Positions 1,219 to 23,153 of a stretch of 53,289 nt of DNA are shown one piece after another. Under the pieces are notes generated by a model. It worked only from the letters and a program-made list of their open reading frames with translations, was not told the origin of the DNA and did not search any database. The DNA is from Nitrospira japonica (GTDB lineage Bacteria; Nitrospirota; Thermodesulfovibrionia; Thermodesulfovibrionales; SM23-35), in the NCBI GenBank assembly GCA_020725385.1, contig DYFC01000021.1, forward strand, positions 1-53,289. Reading direction: 5' to 3'. The translations under genes and the position numbers were made by a program. How positions within the stretch are numbered: the first letter of the stretch is position 1; each line of letters begins with the position of its first letter.

Positions 1219-2022
1219 ATGTCTGATTTTAGCGAAATATCGAAACAATATGAAAGTAATTCGGTGGTTCAAAAATCGGCAAGTCAAATCCTTTTCGAGC
1301 TTCTTGATATTCAGGCAAAAGACGATGTGCTTGATTTAGGGTGTGGAACAGGGCATATAACAAAAGAAATAAAAAGTAAAACAGATGGCAAAGTTGTTGG
1401 TGTTGATCCATCTGAAGGAATGATTAAAAAAGCACAGGAACAATTTTCAAATCTGGGGATCACTTTTCGGGTCTGCTCTGCCGAACAACTTGATTATAAA
1501 AATGAATTCGACATAATTTTTTGCAATTCGGCATTTCAGTGGTTTGTCAATCCTGTGAAGGCTATTGCAGCGTGTTACGCTTCTCTTAAAATGAATGGAA
1601 AAATGGCAATACAGGCTCCGTCAAAATATAATTACTGCCCTAATTTTCTCACGGCTATAAAAGAAGTTATGCAGAATAAGGCTACGAAAGATATTTTTTC
1701 AGGCTTTAACCCTCCATGGTTCTTCAGAAATACAGCTGAAGAATATACGGAATTATTTAGCGGAGCCGGTTTTAGAGTAAAAACTTCAAATATAGTTGAA
1801 GTTAACACCTATCATTCAGTTGAGGAGACATATAGAATTTTCGAGTCAGGAGCAGCAGCAGGATATTTGAATCAGGCTTACTACAGTACTCAGCTTACAC
1901 AGGAATATAAAGACAGCTTCAGAAATATTGTAAGAAATTCGTTTAGTAATCAGGCAGACGAAACAAAGAAAGTACGATTGACATTTTATCGTATCTATCT
2001 TCTTGCTAAAAAGGAAGGATAA
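1219..2022 (+). CDS. Class I SAM-dependent methyltransferase
   Basis: 267 residues. Motif I is textbook (VLDLGCGTGHI, about residues 39-49), followed by the acidic end of strand 2 (VVGVDPS, ribose-binding Asp), the motif IV region (FDIIFCNSAFQWF) and a proline/Trp-rich C-terminal half (GFNPPWFFRNTAEEY). The pattern resembles the trans-aconitate methyltransferase/BioC group of small-molecule methyltransferases; no biotin genes are near, so BioC is not claimed. It is the only gene of the third cassette. AGGTG at 1203-1207 may serve as ribosome-binding site, though the spacing is long. The stop codon lies in the first core of attC-like site 3. Confidence 0.8.
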   Translation: MSDFSEISKQYESNSVVQKSASQILFELLDIQAKDDVLDLGCGTGHITKEIKSKTDGKVVGVDPSEGMIKKAQEQFSNLGITFRVCSAEQLDYKNEFDIIFCNSAFQWFVNPVKAIAACYASLKMNGKMAIQAPSKYNYCPNFLTAIKEVMQNKATKDIFSGFNPPWFFRNTAEEYTELFSGAGFRVKTSNIVEVNTYHSVEETYRIFESGAAAGYLNQAYYSTQLTQEYKDSFRNIVRNSFSNQADETKKVRLTFYRIYLLAKKEG

Positions 2023-2078
2023 CAAGGCGTTCCAGAGAACAAGCCCTAAACGGACTGCCACTGAACTTATCGTTAGTG
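2017..2078 (+). other. attC-like recombination site 3 (array end)
   Basis: 62 bp from GGATAAC (2017-2023, containing the TAA stop) to GTTAGTG (2072-2078). TAAC pairs with GTTA at the ends. Internal blocks GGCGTTCCAGAG and GGACTGCCAC recall the conserved inner part of many chromosomal-integron attC sites. GGC-TTC pairs with GAA-GCC in the left half. No further cassette gene follows on the plus strand; the next gene is on the minus strand. Confidence 0.55.
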
Positions 2079-2229
2079 CTTTTGTTATTTTTCACATAAA
2101 ACTATATAAAACCTATTTAAAATTCTCACGATATTTTGTATAAAAGGAAATATTTATCAAAATAAATTAACTAGAGATAAAAGAGAATAACGGAGATTCA
2201 GATTATGGTCATGATGCTGTCGGAGGTAA

Positions 2230-3081
2230 TTATTTGATAATCTGATATGTTATTGCTAAAGTGTAATTAATTCCTTTTGCAGTATTTTTTCCGTATATTG
2301 AAGGGGTAAGGCCAGCTTCTATGCCCCAGTTTTTGTTAATTTTATAACCAATAACTACATCTAATTTTCCTATATCATAATTATTCGTTGCTGTTGGATT
2401 GCCATTTGAATCTACATCTTTGCCATTATCGGTGCTAAAAATTCCGTCAAGTTTAACTCTACCATAAATATTTTTTCTTAAATCAATCCCGACTTCAATT
2501 AGATACCTTATTTCATCAGAGGGCTCTTGCAGTCGCCATCTATATCCAATTTCAAAATTACAATACCCCGGGATTATTGGGTATAGTGTATGACCGTAAA
2601 GAAGGCGCATTTCTAAATCAATTTGACCGTTTCCAAGAGGAAGCTCATCGTCCTTTTCGTATGCCCATGGAATTTTCGTCAATAGCTGAGCAGATAAAAT
2701 ACCTTCTGCCAGTTTCATTATCTGCATTTTTGCGCCAACATCAATATCTCCTATGCCGGATGTTTTCTGTTCGGCTGTATAATCGTTCTTTCTAAGTCTT
2801 TTTATATAAATTGAATTTATGACTGTAAGATTATCGTATAAACCATACTCGAAATAATTGCTAATATGGTAATCACTAAAACTTCCGTTATTTGCAAAAT
2901 CAACTATTTCCCCATTGCTATCATAATCTTTGTTAGCAGAATAGTAATTAAAAGAAACCCTTTCATATAAATTACCTTTTTTCATTCCCCAGGCGCCGGC
3001 AAAAGAAAAATCGCATGTTATAAAAATAAACATTATCAATAAAAATAAAATAGTACTTTTGATTTTTACGGTATTTTTCAT
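2230..3081 (-). CDS. Exported outer-membrane beta-barrel protein
   Basis: 283 residues. It starts with a clear signal peptide (basic start, about 18 hydrophobic residues, cleavage near SFAGAWG). The rest is a run of amphipathic strands with alternating aromatic residues (YERVSFNYYSAN, YEFGLYDNLTV-type, FEIGYRWRL, LDVVIGYKINKNWGIEAGL), ending in TLAITYQIIK, as in transporter-like or phenol-degradation-type barrels. No plug or catalytic motif is visible. AGAGG lies 7 nt before the ATG. It stands alone, oriented away from the cellulose-synthase-like gene. Substrate and role are unknown. Confidence 0.65.
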   Translation of the reverse strand: MKNTVKIKSTILFLLIMFIFITCDFSFAGAWGMKKGNLYERVSFNYYSANKDYDSNGEIVDFANNGSFSDYHISNYFEYGLYDNLTVINSIYIKRLRKNDYTAEQKTSGIGDIDVGAKMQIMKLAEGILSAQLLTKIPWAYEKDDELPLGNGQIDLEMRLLYGHTLYPIIPGYCNFEIGYRWRLQEPSDEIRYLIEVGIDLRKNIYGRVKLDGIFSTDNGKDVDSNGNPTATNNYDIGKLDVVIGYKINKNWGIEAGLTPSIYGKNTAKGINYTLAITYQIIK

Positions 3082-3265
3082 AAAAAACCTCTTTAATCTA
3101 AAATTAAAAATGCATTTTTTTATATTGAATATTAAGAGTAAGTTAAAACAAGTATAGAATCAAATTGATATTATCAATAGAAAGAAACGTATATATTTAG
3201 ATAAAAAATAAAAATAAGAAATTTAAAGTTTTATCCTTCACCTGAAACCTGATAATATAAATAGC

Positions 3266-4723
3266 ATGTTAAGAACGATTTTATTTTTTCTAACATTAAT
3301 ACATTTTCTTTGTCTCGGAAGTCTTGCATTGTATGGAATCCACAGGATATGGTTATTATCACAATTGGCAAGTGAAAGAAAAAAATATTCTGAAAAAATA
3401 TTACCTATTAAAAATAATCATCCTTTTGTGACTATCCAATTGCCAATTTATAATGAAAGATTCGTAGCAGGAAGATTAATAGATGCTGCAGCAAAAATCA
3501 AATGGCCTAAAGATAGATTTGAGATACATGTACTTGATGATTCAACCGATGACACGAAAAATATTATAGATAAAAATATCGAATTATGGAAAAAAGAAGG
3601 ATTAAACATTCATGTTATCAGGAGAAAAAATCGAGATGGATTTAAGGCAGGTGCTCTATCTAACGGATTAAAACAAGCTAAAGGAGAATTTATTGCTATA
3701 TTCGACGCAGACTTTATGCCAGAACCAGATTTTCTATGTAAAACAATCCCATATTTCACCGATAAAAAAGTAGGTATGATACAGGCTCGCTGGAGTTTTC
3801 TTAATTGCGGTCATTCATGGTTAACAAGGATTCAATCCATTTTTCTTGGCCAGCATTTTTCCATTGAACATTTAATAAGATTTAAAAAAGGGTTATTTTT
3901 TAATTTTAATGGAACTGCCGGCATATGGAGAAAAGAAGCTATTGAGACATCAGGTGGATGGCAATCTGATACTGTTACAGAGGATCTTGATTTAAGTTAT
4001 CGTGCACAAATAGCTGGCTGGAAATTTATATATCTCGATAATGTTTCTGTCCCGTCAGAATTACCAATTACTATCGCAGATTTTAGAAATCAACAACAGA
4101 GATGGGCAAAAGGTTCAATACAAACAGCAAAAAAAATATTACCCCAACTTCTCCTACTGCCTCTGTCATTTTCTGTTAAAAGAGAAGCTGTTGCACATCT
4201 CATGGCAAATTTGTGCTGGCTTTTAGGTGCAATCTCTGTCTTAACACTGTATCCGGCTATTTTGTATCGTAAAGAGATCGGTATATATCAAATACTTCAT
4301 ATTGATCTGCCTCTATTTATATTTTCTGGATTTGCTATTTTCATTTATTTTCTCTTCTTTTCTAAAATTAACAACAATAAGATTGATTACCATATACTTT
4401 TTTTATTACCCATTTTAAGCGTGGGAATAGCTCCAAGCATATCACTTTCTGTTCTAAAGGGTATTTTTAGTAAAGGAGGTAATTTTTGCAGGACTCCAAA
4501 ATATGGCATTACTGGTAAAAACAAAATACCTGAATCAGTCTTGATATATAAAACTAAGTCATATAGTTATATCATTTTAAATATAATTTTCTTTATTTAT
4601 TCACTTCTCCCTGTTTTTTTTGCTATGAATAGAAATACAATTTTTGCAATCCCTTTTTTGTTAATTTTTCCCGCAGGTTTTATCTTAATAATTTTTAAAG
4701 AACTTTCAGAACTTAAAAGTTAG
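3266..4723 (+). CDS. Membrane-bound processive family-2 glycosyltransferase (cellulose synthase-like)
   Basis: 485 residues: one N-terminal membrane helix, a cytoplasmic GT-A domain (about 50-300) and four to five C-terminal membrane helices. Catalytic signatures of processive inverting GT2 enzymes are all present: DDSTDDT, the DAD metal site (FDADFMP), the TEDLDLSYR acceptor motif and QQQRWAKGS, equivalent to QxxRW. Such proteins polymerise or transfer sugars from nucleotide-sugars at the inner membrane (glucomannan or beta-glucan type). No c-di-GMP PilZ domain is present. There is no Shine-Dalgarno; a weak TAATAT lies 7 nt before the ATG. The product is unknown. Confidence 0.82.
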   Translation: MLRTILFFLTLIHFLCLGSLALYGIHRIWLLSQLASERKKYSEKILPIKNNHPFVTIQLPIYNERFVAGRLIDAAAKIKWPKDRFEIHVLDDSTDDTKNIIDKNIELWKKEGLNIHVIRRKNRDGFKAGALSNGLKQAKGEFIAIFDADFMPEPDFLCKTIPYFTDKKVGMIQARWSFLNCGHSWLTRIQSIFLGQHFSIEHLIRFKKGLFFNFNGTAGIWRKEAIETSGGWQSDTVTEDLDLSYRAQIAGWKFIYLDNVSVPSELPITIADFRNQQQRWAKGSIQTAKKILPQLLLLPLSFSVKREAVAHLMANLCWLLGAISVLTLYPAILYRKEIGIYQILHIDLPLFIFSGFAIFIYFLFFSKINNNKIDYHILFLLPILSVGIAPSISLSVLKGIFSKGGNFCRTPKYGITGKNKIPESVLIYKTKSYSYIILNIIFFIYSLLPVFFAMNRNTIFAIPFLLIFPAGFILIIFKELSELKS

Positions 4724-18314: not shown

Positions 18315-19053
18315 CATATTATAATTTCAGTATATTTTTTCTGCCTAAATCATAATCAAATTCGCTTAATTCTGCAATAGAGATGCCCGTTATATGTTTT
18401 TAAACATAATTAATAACAGTTTATTAACAATCATTGTTAATTTAATATGTCTGATAAGATATATTATGTAAAATAATGAATGTTCTTTTTATTTTTTGTT
18501 ATACTATTACCCTTTTTCCTATATATGAACTTATTAAAAGACAGATAATGAATTTAATCTTTTTAATATGTTACAGATGCTCTTTTTTGTAATTATTCAT
18601 GTTTTTAGTTTAAAATTAATAATTCCTGTATCAAATTCTTATAGCATATGCTTTTAAAATAGAACAATTTATTTTGGAATATTATTTAATCACTTTAAAA
18701 ATTTAATATAATATATTGTAATTTAATAAATAATTTGATTAACTTTAAGAAAATATTTAAAGAACTAAAAATAGACATAATTTTTTTAAATTACTAATTA
18801 ATATTATTGATGTAATATTGCATTAAATATGATAATTTTCTTTTTCAATAAAAATTAAATTTTCTCAAAAATATTAGTTAATAAATCATTTAACTTTAAT
18901 AATATATATTTTTTTAAAGTTATACTTTCAGTTTTTAAATTAGTAGTTCTACTTCCGGATAATATATAGTTATTTTCTATTAATTTCTCATTTTCAATCA
19001 CTATTATCTATTTGTTAAAAAGTATTTAGATTAATAAAAATATATTAAATAAA
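18315..19053. other. Gene-free, very AT-rich intergenic region (739 bp)
   Basis: No open frame, tRNA or strong fold could be supported on either strand. Long A/T runs dominate, with almost no GC-rich patches except CCGGAT at about 18956. A 17-bp perfect palindrome lies at 18424-18440. The right end leads into the DUF3343 gene with TATATT at 19041-19046, 7 nt before its ATG. It is by far the longest gap in an otherwise dense window and sits directly before the selenium genes. Confidence 0.6.
18424..18440. promoter_or_regulatory. Perfect 17-bp palindrome, operator candidate
   Basis: TTAACAATCATTGTTAA: 8-bp arms around a central C. It resembles a homodimeric repressor site. There is no regulator gene next to it and it lies about 610 bp before the DUF3343 gene and 110 bp after mtaB, so its target is unclear. 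In DNA this AT-rich a palindrome of this length is unlikely but not impossible by chance. Confidence 0.4.
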
Positions 19054-19311
19054 ATGAATAGTTACGCTATAATTACTTTTCATAATTCTCATTTTGCATT
19101 AAAAGCAAAAAGAGTCTTTGATAATAATCGTTTGAAATCAGAAACTATACCTGTACCAAGAGAATTAAGTTCAGAATGTGGTTTCTGTTGTAAAGTTTTG
19201 TGGAAAGATAAAGACTTAGTAGAAAATGTTTTAAAGAAAAATAATATTGCTTATGAAAATATTTATAGATGGGAAGATAAAGCAAAAGGCAAGAAATTTA
19301 ATTTTGTTTGA
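19054..19311 (+). CDS. DUF3343 putative Se/S carrier-like protein
   Basis: 85 residues. YAIITFHNSHFALKAKRVF, then TIPVPRELSSECGFCCKV, is the DUF3343 pattern: a short alpha-beta domain with a Cys after SSxCG. In comparative genomics DUF3343 occurs with YedF, a cysteine-desulfurase-family protein and selD in genomes using selenium outside or alongside selenocysteine. Here the two-Cys loop CGFCC could hold a thiol or selenol. It heads a three-gene unit (16-bp gap to yedF). No ribosome-binding site; TATATT lies 7 nt upstream. Confidence 0.75.
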   Translation: MNSYAIITFHNSHFALKAKRVFDNNRLKSETIPVPRELSSECGFCCKVLWKDKDLVENVLKKNNIAYENIYRWEDKAKGKKFNFV

Positions 19312-19326
19312 AAGAAGGAGGATTTA

Positions 19327-19938
19327 ATGTCTATAGAAATAGATGCAAGAGGGCTACCCTGCCCTCAACCTGTAATTAAAACAAAAGAAGGCTTAGAAAA
19401 AGCTAAAGGAAAAGAATTAGTAATTATTGTTAGCACATCTGAATCAAGGGATAATGTTCTTAGATTTTTATCTCATTCAGGTATAAATATTAATAAAGTT
19501 GAAGAAAATAACGGTTCATTTTATATATATACTGAAAAAACAAATAGAATACCTATAAATGTTGAAAAAAATGAATATATATGTTCAACCTCACAAATAA
19601 ATTTTGGAACGACTATTTTTATTAATAAAGACCGTATTGGACATGGCAATGACGAACTTGGCTATAATCTTATGAAAGCTTTCATAACAACAATTAAAGA
19701 TTTGTCTGTCCAGCCTAAGACTCTATGTTTTATGAATAGCGGGGTAAAACTTACAGTTAATGGGGCTGAAACTATTCCATATCTTAAGAATTTAGAGGAA
19801 AAAGGCATTGAGATTCTTGTATGCGGGACATGTCTTAGCTTTTACAATATCAAAGATAAATTAGCTGTCGGAAAAATTTCGAACATGTATGACATTTCTG
19901 AAACTATGCTAAAATCTTCCAAAGTCATTACTATATAA
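19327..19938 (+). CDS. yedF: Selenium metabolism protein YedF (TusA-like plus DsrE-like)
   Basis: 203 residues. Residues 1-70 are a TusA/SirA domain with the thiol motif DARGLPCPQPVIKTK (Cys12), a persulfide or perselenide relay. The second half (about 95-203) is DsrE-like, with GHGNDELGYNLMKAF, CFMNSGVKL and a conserved Cys pair region LVCGTCLSFY. This fusion is the YedF type that tracks with selenium use in bacteria. GGAGG lies 6 nt before the ATG. The stop overlaps the next start (TAATG). Confidence 0.85.
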   Translation: MSIEIDARGLPCPQPVIKTKEGLEKAKGKELVIIVSTSESRDNVLRFLSHSGININKVEENNGSFYIYTEKTNRIPINVEKNEYICSTSQINFGTTIFINKDRIGHGNDELGYNLMKAFITTIKDLSVQPKTLCFMNSGVKLTVNGAETIPYLKNLEEKGIEILVCGTCLSFYNIKDKLAVGKISNMYDISETMLKSSKVITI

Positions 19939-21095
19939 TGAGAAAAAAAGTTGTTTATTTTGATAATGCAGCAACATCTGGAATTAAACCGCCTTCTGTA
20001 ATTAAAGCTATATGTGATTGTCTTAAGAAAAAAAATGCTAATCCCGGTAGATCAGGTCATAGTCTTTCTGTAAAAGCTGCTGAAATAATTTATAGTTGTC
20101 GAGAAAAAATAGGCGAATTATTTAATTTTGATAAGACTGAAAATATAATTCTCACTAAAAATGCTACAGAATCTCTTAATATTGTCATCAACGGTATCTT
20201 AAATACAGGAGATGAAGTTATTACGACTTCAATGGAACATAACTCTGTATTAAGACCATTAACTTATTTAAAGGAAAAAAGGCATATTAAAGTAACGATA
20301 ATTAATGCAGATTTAAACGGTCAGATAAATCCAAAAGACATTTTGAATTCAATATCAGATAAAACAAAACTTATAGTAGTTACTTCTGCATCAAATGTTA
20401 CAGGGACTAAAATGGATGTAGAAAAAATAAGAGAAATCGCTCAATATAACAACATAAAAATTCTTGTAGATGCAGCACAAGGAGCAGGAACAGTAAAAAT
20501 TGATTTTAAAAAATCCCCATTTGATTTTATTGCAATTACAGGCCATAAACATCTTTTTGGACCGCAGGGTACGGGTGCTTTAATTATTAAAAATAATGAA
20601 GAACTTGAACCTTTAATGTTTGGTGGAACTGGAAGTCAATCAGAGAAAATTATTCATCCAGGTTTTTTACCGGACAAATTTGAATCTGGCACGCTTAATA
20701 CGCCCGGTTTTGCTGGATTATCCGCAGGTATTGAATTTATTTTAGGTAAAAAGATTGAAAATATAATCAGCTATGAAAAACAGTTAACAAATTATTTAAT
20801 AAAGAAATTAAAAGAAATTGAAGAAATTACTATATATGCAGCAAATGTAGAAAGAGTATCCACTGTTTCATTCAATATTAACGGATTCCAGCCATCAGAA
20901 GTCGCAGATTATTTAGACAAAAATCATGGAATCTGTGTACGTTCCGGGCTCCATTGCGCACCTGAAGCTCATAAGACCATAAATACATTTCCAAACGGTA
21001 CAATAAGATTTTCGTTGTCATATTTTAATACTAAGGAAGAAGTTGATACCTCAATTAACGCCTTGAAATCATTTATTATCAAAAATAAGAATTAG
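19938..21095 (+). CDS. Cysteine desulfurase family protein (EF2568 type)
   Basis: 385 residues, a PLP-dependent class V aminotransferase fold. The start YFDNAATSGIKPPSV, the PLP lysine in ITGHKHLFGP and the catalytic Cys loop RSGLHCAPEAH are clear. It would release sulfur from cysteine, or selenium from selenocysteine, and pass it on, most likely to the neighbouring YedF or DUF3343 protein. The order DUF3343-yedF-desulfurase resembles the Enterococcus faecalis selenium cluster containing EF2568. The start overlaps the yedF stop by 1 bp. The 3' end overlaps the convergent selB by 4 bp. Confidence 0.85.
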   Translation: MRKKVVYFDNAATSGIKPPSVIKAICDCLKKKNANPGRSGHSLSVKAAEIIYSCREKIGELFNFDKTENIILTKNATESLNIVINGILNTGDEVITTSMEHNSVLRPLTYLKEKRHIKVTIINADLNGQINPKDILNSISDKTKLIVVTSASNVTGTKMDVEKIREIAQYNNIKILVDAAQGAGTVKIDFKKSPFDFIAITGHKHLFGPQGTGALIIKNNEELEPLMFGGTGSQSEKIIHPGFLPDKFESGTLNTPGFAGLSAGIEFILGKKIENIISYEKQLTNYLIKKLKEIEEITIYAANVERVSTVSFNINGFQPSEVADYLDKNHGICVRSGLHCAPEAHKTINTFPNGTIRFSLSYFNTKEEVDTSINALKSFIIKNKN

Positions 21096-22966
21096 TTAAT
21101 TAATTGCCTCGTATCTCCCACTCTTTTAGTCAATTTAATAGCATCAAAATACTCAAGAAAATGAATTGCACACTTTCTATTTGTTGGAAAAATATCTTTG
21201 AATTCTCTGACTGTAATAAAAGGTTTTTCCCTGAAAAAGTTTCTCAGATTTTCAAGCCCTTTTTTATAAGAATCTGATTTAACATAAATAGAATTGCTTA
21301 TTTTTATTACTAGACCTTCCTTTTCCATTAATTTCAATATATTTAATATATATTTTTGTTCAATGTTAAGGATTTTGCTTAATTCCTCTATATTAGGTGG
21401 TTCTGTACCTGTTTTATTAAGTATTTGAAGTATTAAATCTTTATTGATTTCATCCTTCTTATTTAATAAAGGTTTAAAAGAAGAAAGTCTAACAATATCT
21501 TTTTCTATATAAATATCTTTCAAAGATGATAAAAGGCTGTTGAATATCTTAACATCTACTTTTATATAATTCCTGAGTTCTTCTTTTGGAATTCCGGGTT
21601 TTATCGGGTTATTTTCATGGTATTCCTTTAACTTTTTTATTATTATATCTTGAAAAATTCTAATAGCTTCAGAATGAAAAATAATATCATCATATTGGTA
21701 AACCAATTGCTTCGACCTCAAATCATTTAAAGATTGATATATTTCGGGTATATCTGCATTTATCCAGCCCTCTAATGTAGATAATCTTATACCATTTATT
21801 GATGTTCTTTTAATTCTTAATGCAATTTTTTCAGCTAAAGTACCATCATCGAAAAAAGTTAACTCATTAATGCTTTTTTGATGACTAATTTTATATGATG
21901 AAGGGTCAAGTATTTCACCTCCACCTATTGTATCAATAGGTGTAACTCTTCTAATTATAAATCTATCACCCGACATTGCAATCACCGGTTCGTTAAGCCG
22001 GAATTGACAATAACAAGTTTCACTCGGTTTTAATTCATTTTTTCCATATAATATAGTCCTTGCAGGTTTTTCGGAAGTACCTATGTGAAAATGTACAATC
22101 TCTCTATTTTTAAGACTTTTTACATGAGATAGTAATGTTACCTTTGCATCGATTTGATATGCAGGAACTAATTTATCAATGTTCACAACAGTATCTCCTC
22201 TTTTTAATAAATCCCTGTCAACTCCCTGAAGATTTATTGCAACTCTTTGTCCTGCATAAGCTTCGTTAACACTTTGACCGTGACAATGTAACCCTCTAAT
22301 TTTAGTTCTTACTTTACATGGGAGAATATCAACTTCTTCTCCAACACTTATTTTTCCAGAAAAAACAGTTCCGGTTACTACTGTGCCGAATCCTTTCAGT
22401 GTAAAAACTCTATCAATAGGCAGCCTAAAAATTCCTTTTGTTGATTTTGGATTAACTTTCAAAGATTCTTGTTTAATTTTCTCTTTCAATAATTCAATAT
22501 TCTTCATTGTGATAGTCGAAACATTAATTATTTCTGAATTTTCAAGAAAGGAGTCTTTTAGAAATTCTTTGACATCTTCTGTTACAAGATCAAGCCAATC
22601 TTTATCGACAAGATCGCATTTAGTAATTGCCACAATCCCTGATTTTATTTTTAAGAGATTGCATATATTAAAGTGTTCAATACTTTGCGGCATAATTCCC
22701 TCATCGGCAGCTACTACGAAAAGTACAATATCTATACCACCTGCACCTGCTAACATATTTCTCACAAGACGTTCATGTCCTGGCACATCTACAATTCCAA
22801 CTGTAAGTCCATTAGTATATTTAAGGTAAGCAAAACCTAAATCAATTGTTATTCCACGTTCTTTTTCTTCTTTTAGTCTATCGGGGTCAATACCTGTTAA
22901 TGCTTTAACTAAAGCGCTTTTTCCATGGTCAATATGTCCTGCGGTACCTAAAATTATATGATGCAT
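21092..22966 (-). CDS. selB: Selenocysteine-specific elongation factor SelB
   Basis: 624 residues. N-terminal EF-Tu-like GTPase: [16 protein letters not shown], the switch region [19 protein letters not shown] and TKCD. Beta-barrel domains 2 and 3 follow, then C-terminal winged-helix repeats (about 380-624) that bind the mRNA SECIS hairpin, ending in [10 protein letters not shown]. SelB brings Sec-tRNA to a recoded codon. The start at 22966 ([11 protein letters not shown]) is chosen because the longer frame would run into the tRNA gene ending 37 bp upstream. No Shine-Dalgarno is visible. It seems co-transcribed with the tRNASec-like gene. selA and selD are not in the window. Confidence 0.93.
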
Positions 22967-23003: not shown

Positions 23004-23099
23004 TGGAGAGGGGTAGTGGGAATCGAACCCACCATAGCTTCTTGTCCAGAGCATCCACTGGTTTTGCAGACCAGGCGGGGCCCAGCCCCGATACCCCTC
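23004..23099 (-). tRNA. tRNASec-shaped tRNA with cysteine anticodon GCA and U73
   Basis: 96 nt with encoded CCA (23006-23004). Acceptor stem of 8 bp: GAGGGGTA (23099-23092) with TACCCCTC (23015-23008). D arm: 6-bp stem CGGGGC/GCCCCG with TGG loop. Anticodon stem CTGGT/ACCAG with loop CTGCAAA, so the anticodon is GCA (23067-23065). A 25-nt variable arm (23057-23033) can form about 8 bp with two bulges. T arm: GTGGG/CCCAC around TTCGATT. This is the bacterial tRNASec body (8/5 geometry). However, tRNASec normally has UCA and G73 (for SerRS); here GCA and U73 are the main CysRS identity elements. It lies 37 bp upstream of selB on the same strand with its own promoter. Confidence 0.9.
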
Positions 23100-23123
23100 G
23101 TTTGTATTTTATTATCGATTATA

Positions 23124-23153
23124 ATTATATGTAAAATAGCTTTTTTCTATCAA
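23124..23153 (-). promoter_or_regulatory. Promoter of the tRNASec-like gene and selB
   Basis: On the minus strand: TTGATA (23153-23148), 18-bp spacer, TATAAT (23129-23124), a consensus -10. Transcription would start near 23117, about 18 nt before the tRNA. As no terminator separates the tRNA from selB, the same transcript can carry both. Confidence 0.65.

Follow-up and report, generated by a model that had tools for sequence, protein, structure and literature searches.

A cysteine-type tRNA on a selenocysteine tRNA body, with an adjacent SelB paralogue and selenium-metabolism genes, in the Nitrospirota

Introduction

What is the function of a tRNA that has the body of a selenocysteine tRNA (tRNASec), the GCA anticodon of a cysteine tRNA and a selB gene directly after it? 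A genome of the Thermodesulfovibrionales (Nitrospirota) raises this question with a locus that we studied in its window (the whole stretch of DNA analyzed, 53,289 nt), in the host genome and across the phylum. The tRNASec-like tRNACys are a known kind: their genes have reportedly been on record since 2016–2018, work in E. coli is said to have established UGA-to-Cys recoding by one of them, and those of the Desulfotomaculum nigrificans type are presumably the ones named tRNAReC. In the literature we found no account of when these tRNAs are made or of their purpose. The reading that we favor, with a probability of about 0.5, is that the tRNA (selC*) is a selenium-regulated Cys-tRNA, delivered by SelB, that puts Cys where Sec normally goes.

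A tRNASec body with cysteine identity elements

The tRNA gene was delimited with ARAGORN, Rfam and a base-pair count:

23004–23099, minus strand: selC*, a tRNASec-shaped tRNA with GCA anticodon, U73, encoded CCA and an 8/5 branch

ARAGORN identifies the gene as tRNA-Cys(gca), and the Rfam match reported at this place is to the tRNA-Sec model (57.7 bits over 23008–23099; gathering score, 47), not to the ordinary tRNA model. The acceptor stem has 8 pairs and the T stem 5 pairs stacked straight onto it, with 13 nt from the T loop to N73, i.e., a 13-bp acceptor/T branch. The anticodon stem has 5 pairs, the variable region 25 nt, and the 3′ end consists of U73 and then an encoded TCCA. The molecule has, therefore, the 13-bp branch and long variable arm of a tRNASec, with U73 in place of the G73 used for serylation by SerRS (the first step) and GCA in place of UCA. 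It also departs from an ordinary tRNACys, which has a 7/5 branch and a short variable loop (12 nt and 5 nt in the host tRNACys versus 8/5 and 25 nt here). This combination of a tRNASec-like body, GCA and U73, with a canonical tRNASec alongside, is that of the selC*/tRNAReC group.

A preliminary description made from the letters of the window had given the gene acceptor and T stems of 8 and 5 bp, a long variable arm, GCA and U73, all of which ARAGORN and the base-pair count reproduce; its 6-bp D stem is a possible reading, with a 3-nt loop. It had also proposed a run of the tRNASec covariance model, which gave the match above, and its account of the tRNASec-like literature agrees with what PMC7609411 describes. 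Furthermore, its central idea holds: the gene combines the body of a tRNASec with the identity elements for CysRS, is conserved and is linked with a gene for SelB.

According to PMC9976931, CysRS relies mainly on GCA and U73, whereas no other element of E. coli tRNASec contributes as much to serylation as G73; charging of selC* with cysteine is, therefore, likely. On these elements, the window tRNA is best explained as an additional tRNACys with a tRNASec body.

The search of 396 genomes of the phylum with a selC* covariance model returned approximately 65 strong matches (at least 77.8 bits; canonical selC scored at most 72.7 bits), all confined to the host's own order or class. A cultured Thermodesulfovibrio is among the bacteria that carry selC*. 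Close homologs with GCA and U73 are present in approximately 60 genomes of the class, which excludes a chance origin. Both elements are conserved in 52 of the 53 tRNAs extracted, the odd one belonging to a different UCA system (genome G018, contig 279). The anticodon arm and loop, CCA and U73 are invariant across the class and the variable arm is very uneven (22 to 55 nt). Canonical selC (27/30) and selC* (29/53) have the same most frequent T arm, GTGGGTTCGATTCCCAC, as expected if one type of factor binds both.

Selenocysteine and cysteine machinery of the host

The host genome (96.6% complete, 71 contigs) contains a canonical selC with UCA and G73 (C13:40092–40185), a normal tRNACys (contig C37), one selA, a full-length CysRS and, on contig 52, a second selB whose product is 58% identical to that of the window copy. 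The UCA selC, selA and normal tRNACys for which the preliminary description had wanted the genome searched are thus all present. In the 71% of the host genome that was read, seven genes that contain an in-frame UGA are candidates for selenoproteins. Judged by eye from the residues that flank the UGA, and not by family search, they encode two formate dehydrogenases and DsbC-like, ArsM-like, NuoB-like, CCG-domain and DsrE-like proteins. Because canonical selC, selA, a second selB, CysRS, tRNACys and UGA candidates are all there, Sec is read at UGA as usual and the window tRNA comes on top of the standard system instead of substituting for part of it. The presence of a normal tRNACys also rules out selC* as the sole tRNACys of the host.

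Four of the candidates lie at C23:4473 (CCG-domain protein), C26:19769 (ArsM-like methyltransferase), C62:15359 (DsbC-like) and C31:58867 (DsrE-like). In the NuoB-like gene (C31:43903; L265), the in-frame UGA stands where the CC motif has its first Cys (GLA[U]CAIEMM), and selenocysteine at this position could be a ligand of an iron-sulfur cluster.

The genome also encodes a CysRS-like protein of 406 aa that lacks the anticodon-binding domain (C47:26048–27271; L146:6046–7275). It is kept in about nine genomes, and the neighbors of its gene encode a phosphomutase-like protein and a response regulator/SPOR protein. We rejected this truncated paralog as a dedicated CysRS*: it is found both with and without selC* and belongs to another operon (ribD, response regulator/SPOR, phosphomutase), with no link to selC*. 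The only in-frame TGA in these truncated genes is the terminal stop.

Across the class, selA was found in 43 of the 45 selC* genomes tested. Six genomes (G027, G122, G140, G244, G274 and G364) have selA and selC* with no canonical selC detected. Canonical selC is also missing from metagenome-assembled genomes (MAGs) that lack selC* (G010 and G039) and all six genomes have selA, so assembly gaps are the more economical explanation and the probable cause.

A SelB paralog next to the tRNA gene

The gene that follows selC* encodes a second SelB:

21092–22966, minus strand: selB*, a full-length SelB paralog of 624 aa (TIGR00475, 384.6 bits)

Its start codon at 22966 lies 37 nt downstream of the selC* 3′ end, at the distance and on the strand given in the preliminary description, and the two genes are probably co-transcribed. 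SelB* scores well above the TIGR00475 cut-off (384.6 versus 242.25 bits) and has the SelB winged-helix Pfam domains. A selB gene follows selC* only in the host's own family; none was within reach at 34 further selC* loci outside it (0/34). In a tree of 43 SelB proteins, the six complete or near-complete copies adjacent to selC* form one clade (UFBoot 100/SH-aLRT 99) nested inside the canonical SelBs of the family. By this topology, a duplication of selB left one of the two copies next to selC*, and SelB* is a young offshoot of the native SelB.

Of the two proteins, SelB* has the higher rate of evolution. In domain 1, SelB* and SelB are 80% identical versus 86% among canonical copies; in WH4, the identity is 53% between SelB* and SelB, 75% among canonical copies and 45% among SelB* proteins. 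The divergence is greatest in WH3–WH4, the mRNA-binding (SECIS-binding) end. Both domains are present in the window SelB*, with the core RK..AI..LEYFD and RVGD kept and several canon-invariant positions changed. The residues of the Sec side-chain pocket of SelB (PMC5059743, PMC4150793), namely D180, R181 and R236, with Y or F at 42 (E. coli numbering), are also kept in SelB*, and the 624-aa protein is intact with all pocket residues in five genera. In genome G018, the selB copy next to selC* lacks a full-length reading frame.

The intact Sec-specific pocket is what would be expected if selC* carried Sec, either through SelA or through CysRS mischarging free Sec, and SelB* delivered it at Cys codons. 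Genes of Sec metabolism adjoin selC*/selB*, and the GCA tRNASec of Aeromonas salmonicida is described as placing Sec at a Cys codon (PMC11415595, PMC10778597). However, U73 takes the place of G73, on which serylation of E. coli tRNASec depends most strongly (PMC9976931), the host has a canonical selC, and SECIS-like hairpins are not in excess after Cys codons in the 71% of the genome scanned, so we consider Sec insertion at Cys codons highly improbable.

Relation to known systems

The closest parallel is the D. nigrificans tRNASec-like tRNACys (Vargas-Rodriguez et al. 2018, via PMC11415595), which as described there likewise has a tRNASec-like body, GCA, Cys identity and a canonical Sec system alongside. 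The system studied here differs in its Nitrospirota host, the dedicated SelB paralog in one family, the LysR box and the selenium-operon setting. The selC*/selB*/cysS* systems of Desulfobacterales and Syntrophobacterales (Mukai et al. 2017, via PMC7609411) also have an additional selB immediately after a tRNASec-like tRNA of the Cys type. However, the Desulfobacterales selC* has UCA and A1:U72 and is accompanied by cysS* (PMC7609411), whereas the window tRNA has GCA and G1:C72. As PMC7609411 describes selC*, its branch is of a modified 8/4 type in which A51a bulges out; by contrast, the branch is plain 8/5 in the window tRNA (G000), and the other 19 tRNAs examined have at most 1–2 mismatched pairs and no bulge. 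Furthermore, SelB* as a young duplicate of the native SelB is set apart from the selB* of Desulfobacterales/Syntrophobacterales. The A. salmonicida GCA tRNASec (Mukai et al. 2016, via PMC11415595, PMC10778597) shares the tRNASec-type body and Cys anticodon. It is described as the recoded tRNASec of its organism, whereas the window tRNA coexists with a canonical UCA selC and has a U73 that suggests CysRS.

One relative holds what appears to be the Desulfobacterales type. In G018, contig C279 (L049) carries a tRNA at approximately 1785–1878 that has UCA, A1:U72, U73 and a T stem with a bulged A. Next to it lies a SelB gene (1919–3808) whose product is very divergent (about 31% identical; pocket F to I, R181 to Q). 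By these features it looks like the published selC*/selB* arrangement as PMC7609411 describes it. This 4-kb contig in a Nitrospirota MAG may reflect transfer or contamination, and the two arrangements look independent.

PMC7609411, a review, names the phylum among those with selC* (as Nitrospirae), and the original selC*/tRNAReC survey tables are likely to have mentioned Nitrospirota genes. As far as can be told, what is new here is the fold without the A51a bulge, the independent SelB duplication and the selenium-regulon setting.

Selenium-metabolism genes and a LysR-type box around selC*

In the window, selB* is convergent with an operon of three genes:

19054–19320, plus strand: DUF3343-type small protein, a selenium-metabolism associate (by position and similarity to the copy in genome G009)
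19327–19938, plus strand: YedF (TIGR03527, 209.8 bits)
19938–21095, plus strand: cysteine desulfurase/Sec-lyase-like protein (TIGR01977, 461.5 bits), convergent with selB*

Genes of these types are predicted to serve selenium metabolism (as described in PMC5322559). The divergent operon of G009 and G018 has the order DCCP-HgdC-SelD-DUF3343-YedF-desulfurase, and other selC* loci have the orders LysR_Se-selC*-YedF, selC*-DCCP-HgdC or selC* followed by a TsuA/YedE-like transporter. Genes for LysR_Se, YedF, DCCP, HgdC or TsuA/YedE-like proteins lie within about 1.5 kb of selC* at 20 of 34 loci and of canonical selC at 0 of 33 (Fisher, 3e-8); the loci are related, so this value overstates their independence, and several families are involved. 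DCCP (a double-cubane-cluster reductase) and an HgdC-type activator repeatedly adjoin selC* or sit in selenium operons in many genomes (e.g., L270, L297, L305, L307 and L050).

Upstream of selC* and of the convergent operon, we identified the following elements:

23136–23150, minus strand: LysR-type (T-N11-A) palindrome ATAGAAAAAAGCTAT, beginning 51 nt upstream of selC*
23106–23135, minus strand: sigma-70-like promoter TTTACA-18-TAAAAT next to the palindrome (a consensus match only)
18966–18981, plus strand: ATAGTTATTTTCTATT, a weaker copy of the LysR-type box that lies some 87 nt ahead of the DUF3343-yedF-desulfurase operon

The palindrome (ATAGA-N5-TCTAT) runs into a TTGAC-like −35 element and is mostly found 49–56 nt before the tRNA. 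A LysR-type (LTTR) box score of at least 12 is reached in 20 of 53 selC* upstream regions versus 0.6% of shuffled sequence, before none of 31 canonical selC genes and before none of 5 ordinary tRNACys genes; the consensus was derived from the same selC* sites, and the fixed distance and these controls outweigh the raw score. A related box precedes neighboring selenium operons in the window (18966), G009 and G018. The window copy falls in an unusually long, very AT-rich stretch with no clear gene (18315–19053), which precedes the DUF3343-yedF operon.

All 41 genomes examined have LysR_Se genes, which flank selC* in many of them; in the host genome, LysR_Se proteins are encoded at C11:38899 and C29:7818. 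HrsM, the LysR_Se of Methanococcus, is described as switching Sec- and Cys-type isogenes with selenium (PMC5322559). The LysR_Se/HrsM regulators and the selC* box share the T-N11-A type of motif. tRNA genes are not among the LysR_Se targets described in PMC5322559, and the link to selC* is drawn here from a T-N11-A box at a fixed distance and a LysR_Se gene in the genome, often adjacent. The selC* box is most likely a LysR_Se site, an assignment by neighborhood and motif type, and the promoter looks selenium-responsive. Like the identity of the regulator, the sign of its control is something that we infer.

The conserved promoter box also bears on the possibility that selC* is a relic, or provides cysteine for a purpose other than translation, while SelB* is being lost. 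The faster evolution of SelB* and the missing full-length frame in G018 are in keeping with decay. Nevertheless, selC* is conserved class-wide with an invariant anticodon loop, U73 and CCA, and SelB* is intact with all its pocket residues in five genera. We consider this reading quite improbable.

The selenium-regulon setting would also suit a regulator: charged selC* could occupy SelB or SelB* and tune Sec insertion, or signal Cys or selenium status, without decoding. The preliminary description had likewise offered a sensor or decoy for SelB as one of its options. In favor of such a role, WH3–WH4 of SelB* look relaxed and the length of the variable arm differs widely between selC* genes. Against this, the parts needed for decoding (anticodon arm, CCA and U73) are invariant across the class, and the Desulfotomaculum relative decodes in the tests described in PMC11415595. 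We regard a purely regulatory role as unlikely.

Possible decoding roles of selC*

In the mechanism that we favor, CysRS would charge selC* through GCA and U73. The 13-bp branch would keep EF-Tu off the tRNA and, therefore, a SelB-type factor would carry the Cys-tRNA to the ribosome. In the host's own family, this carrier would probably be the SelB* encoded just downstream of selC*. The LysR-type site, most likely that of LysR_Se, would make production of selC* depend on selenium status, together with YedF/DCCP/SelD-type genes. The tRNA would then put Cys at SECIS-marked Sec (UGA) codons, as its GCA relative does in Desulfotomaculum: the D. nigrificans tRNA is described as inserting Cys at Sec-UGA via SelB, not EF-Tu (PMC11415595). 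Three observations speak against Cys insertion at UGA. GCA is merely near-cognate to UGA, the WH3–WH4 divergence of SelB* is odd if it binds the same SECIS elements, and SelB* is lacking beyond one family.

The GCA anticodon does match Cys codons, and SelB* has diverged in its mRNA-binding domains while keeping its GTPase and aminoacyl domains. SelB* and the Cys-tRNA could thus form a separate channel in which a new RNA signal directs Cys to the UGC/UGU codons of a few mRNAs. The preliminary description had likewise considered SelB-dependent reading of UGC/UGU and suggested looking for SECIS-like hairpins after Cys codons. Such hairpins are not in excess in the host genome: they follow 1.0% of Cys codons versus 0.9% of control codons (5559 Cys codons in 71% of the genome, −12 kcal/mol), a scan that a signal unlike SECIS would escape. 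Nor did conserved Cys codons of the YedF, DCCP and HgdC genes have a consistent conserved hairpin. One column after a conserved DCCP Cys codon ranked 6/358, but its structures differ between genomes and it was rejected. Moreover, the amino acid inserted would be the normal one, which leaves the benefit unclear, and the nearest relative tested, that of D. nigrificans, is described as placing Cys at Sec-UGA (PMC11415595). The hairpin data and this relative leave the UGC/UGU reading unsupported, and we regard it as rather unlikely. The broader version, in which the duplicated SelB and the Cys-charged tRNASec-like tRNA would make up a second, orthogonal recoding channel that is switched by selenium and addressed by a non-SECIS RNA element, is a speculative idea that we rate as similarly improbable.

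Implications

The genomic setting of selC* suggests when and why tRNAs of this kind are made. A concrete lead is provided by a tRNA that is found class-wide among selenium genes, a LysR-type element common to those operons and a dedicated SelB in one family. With Cys insertion at Sec-UGA codons as the favored role, a selenium-controlled Cys-for-Sec switch becomes a testable idea. The locus also offers recoding work a natural tRNA/SelB pair that exists alongside the native pair, and in this family SelB is seen splitting into two paralogs in one cell.
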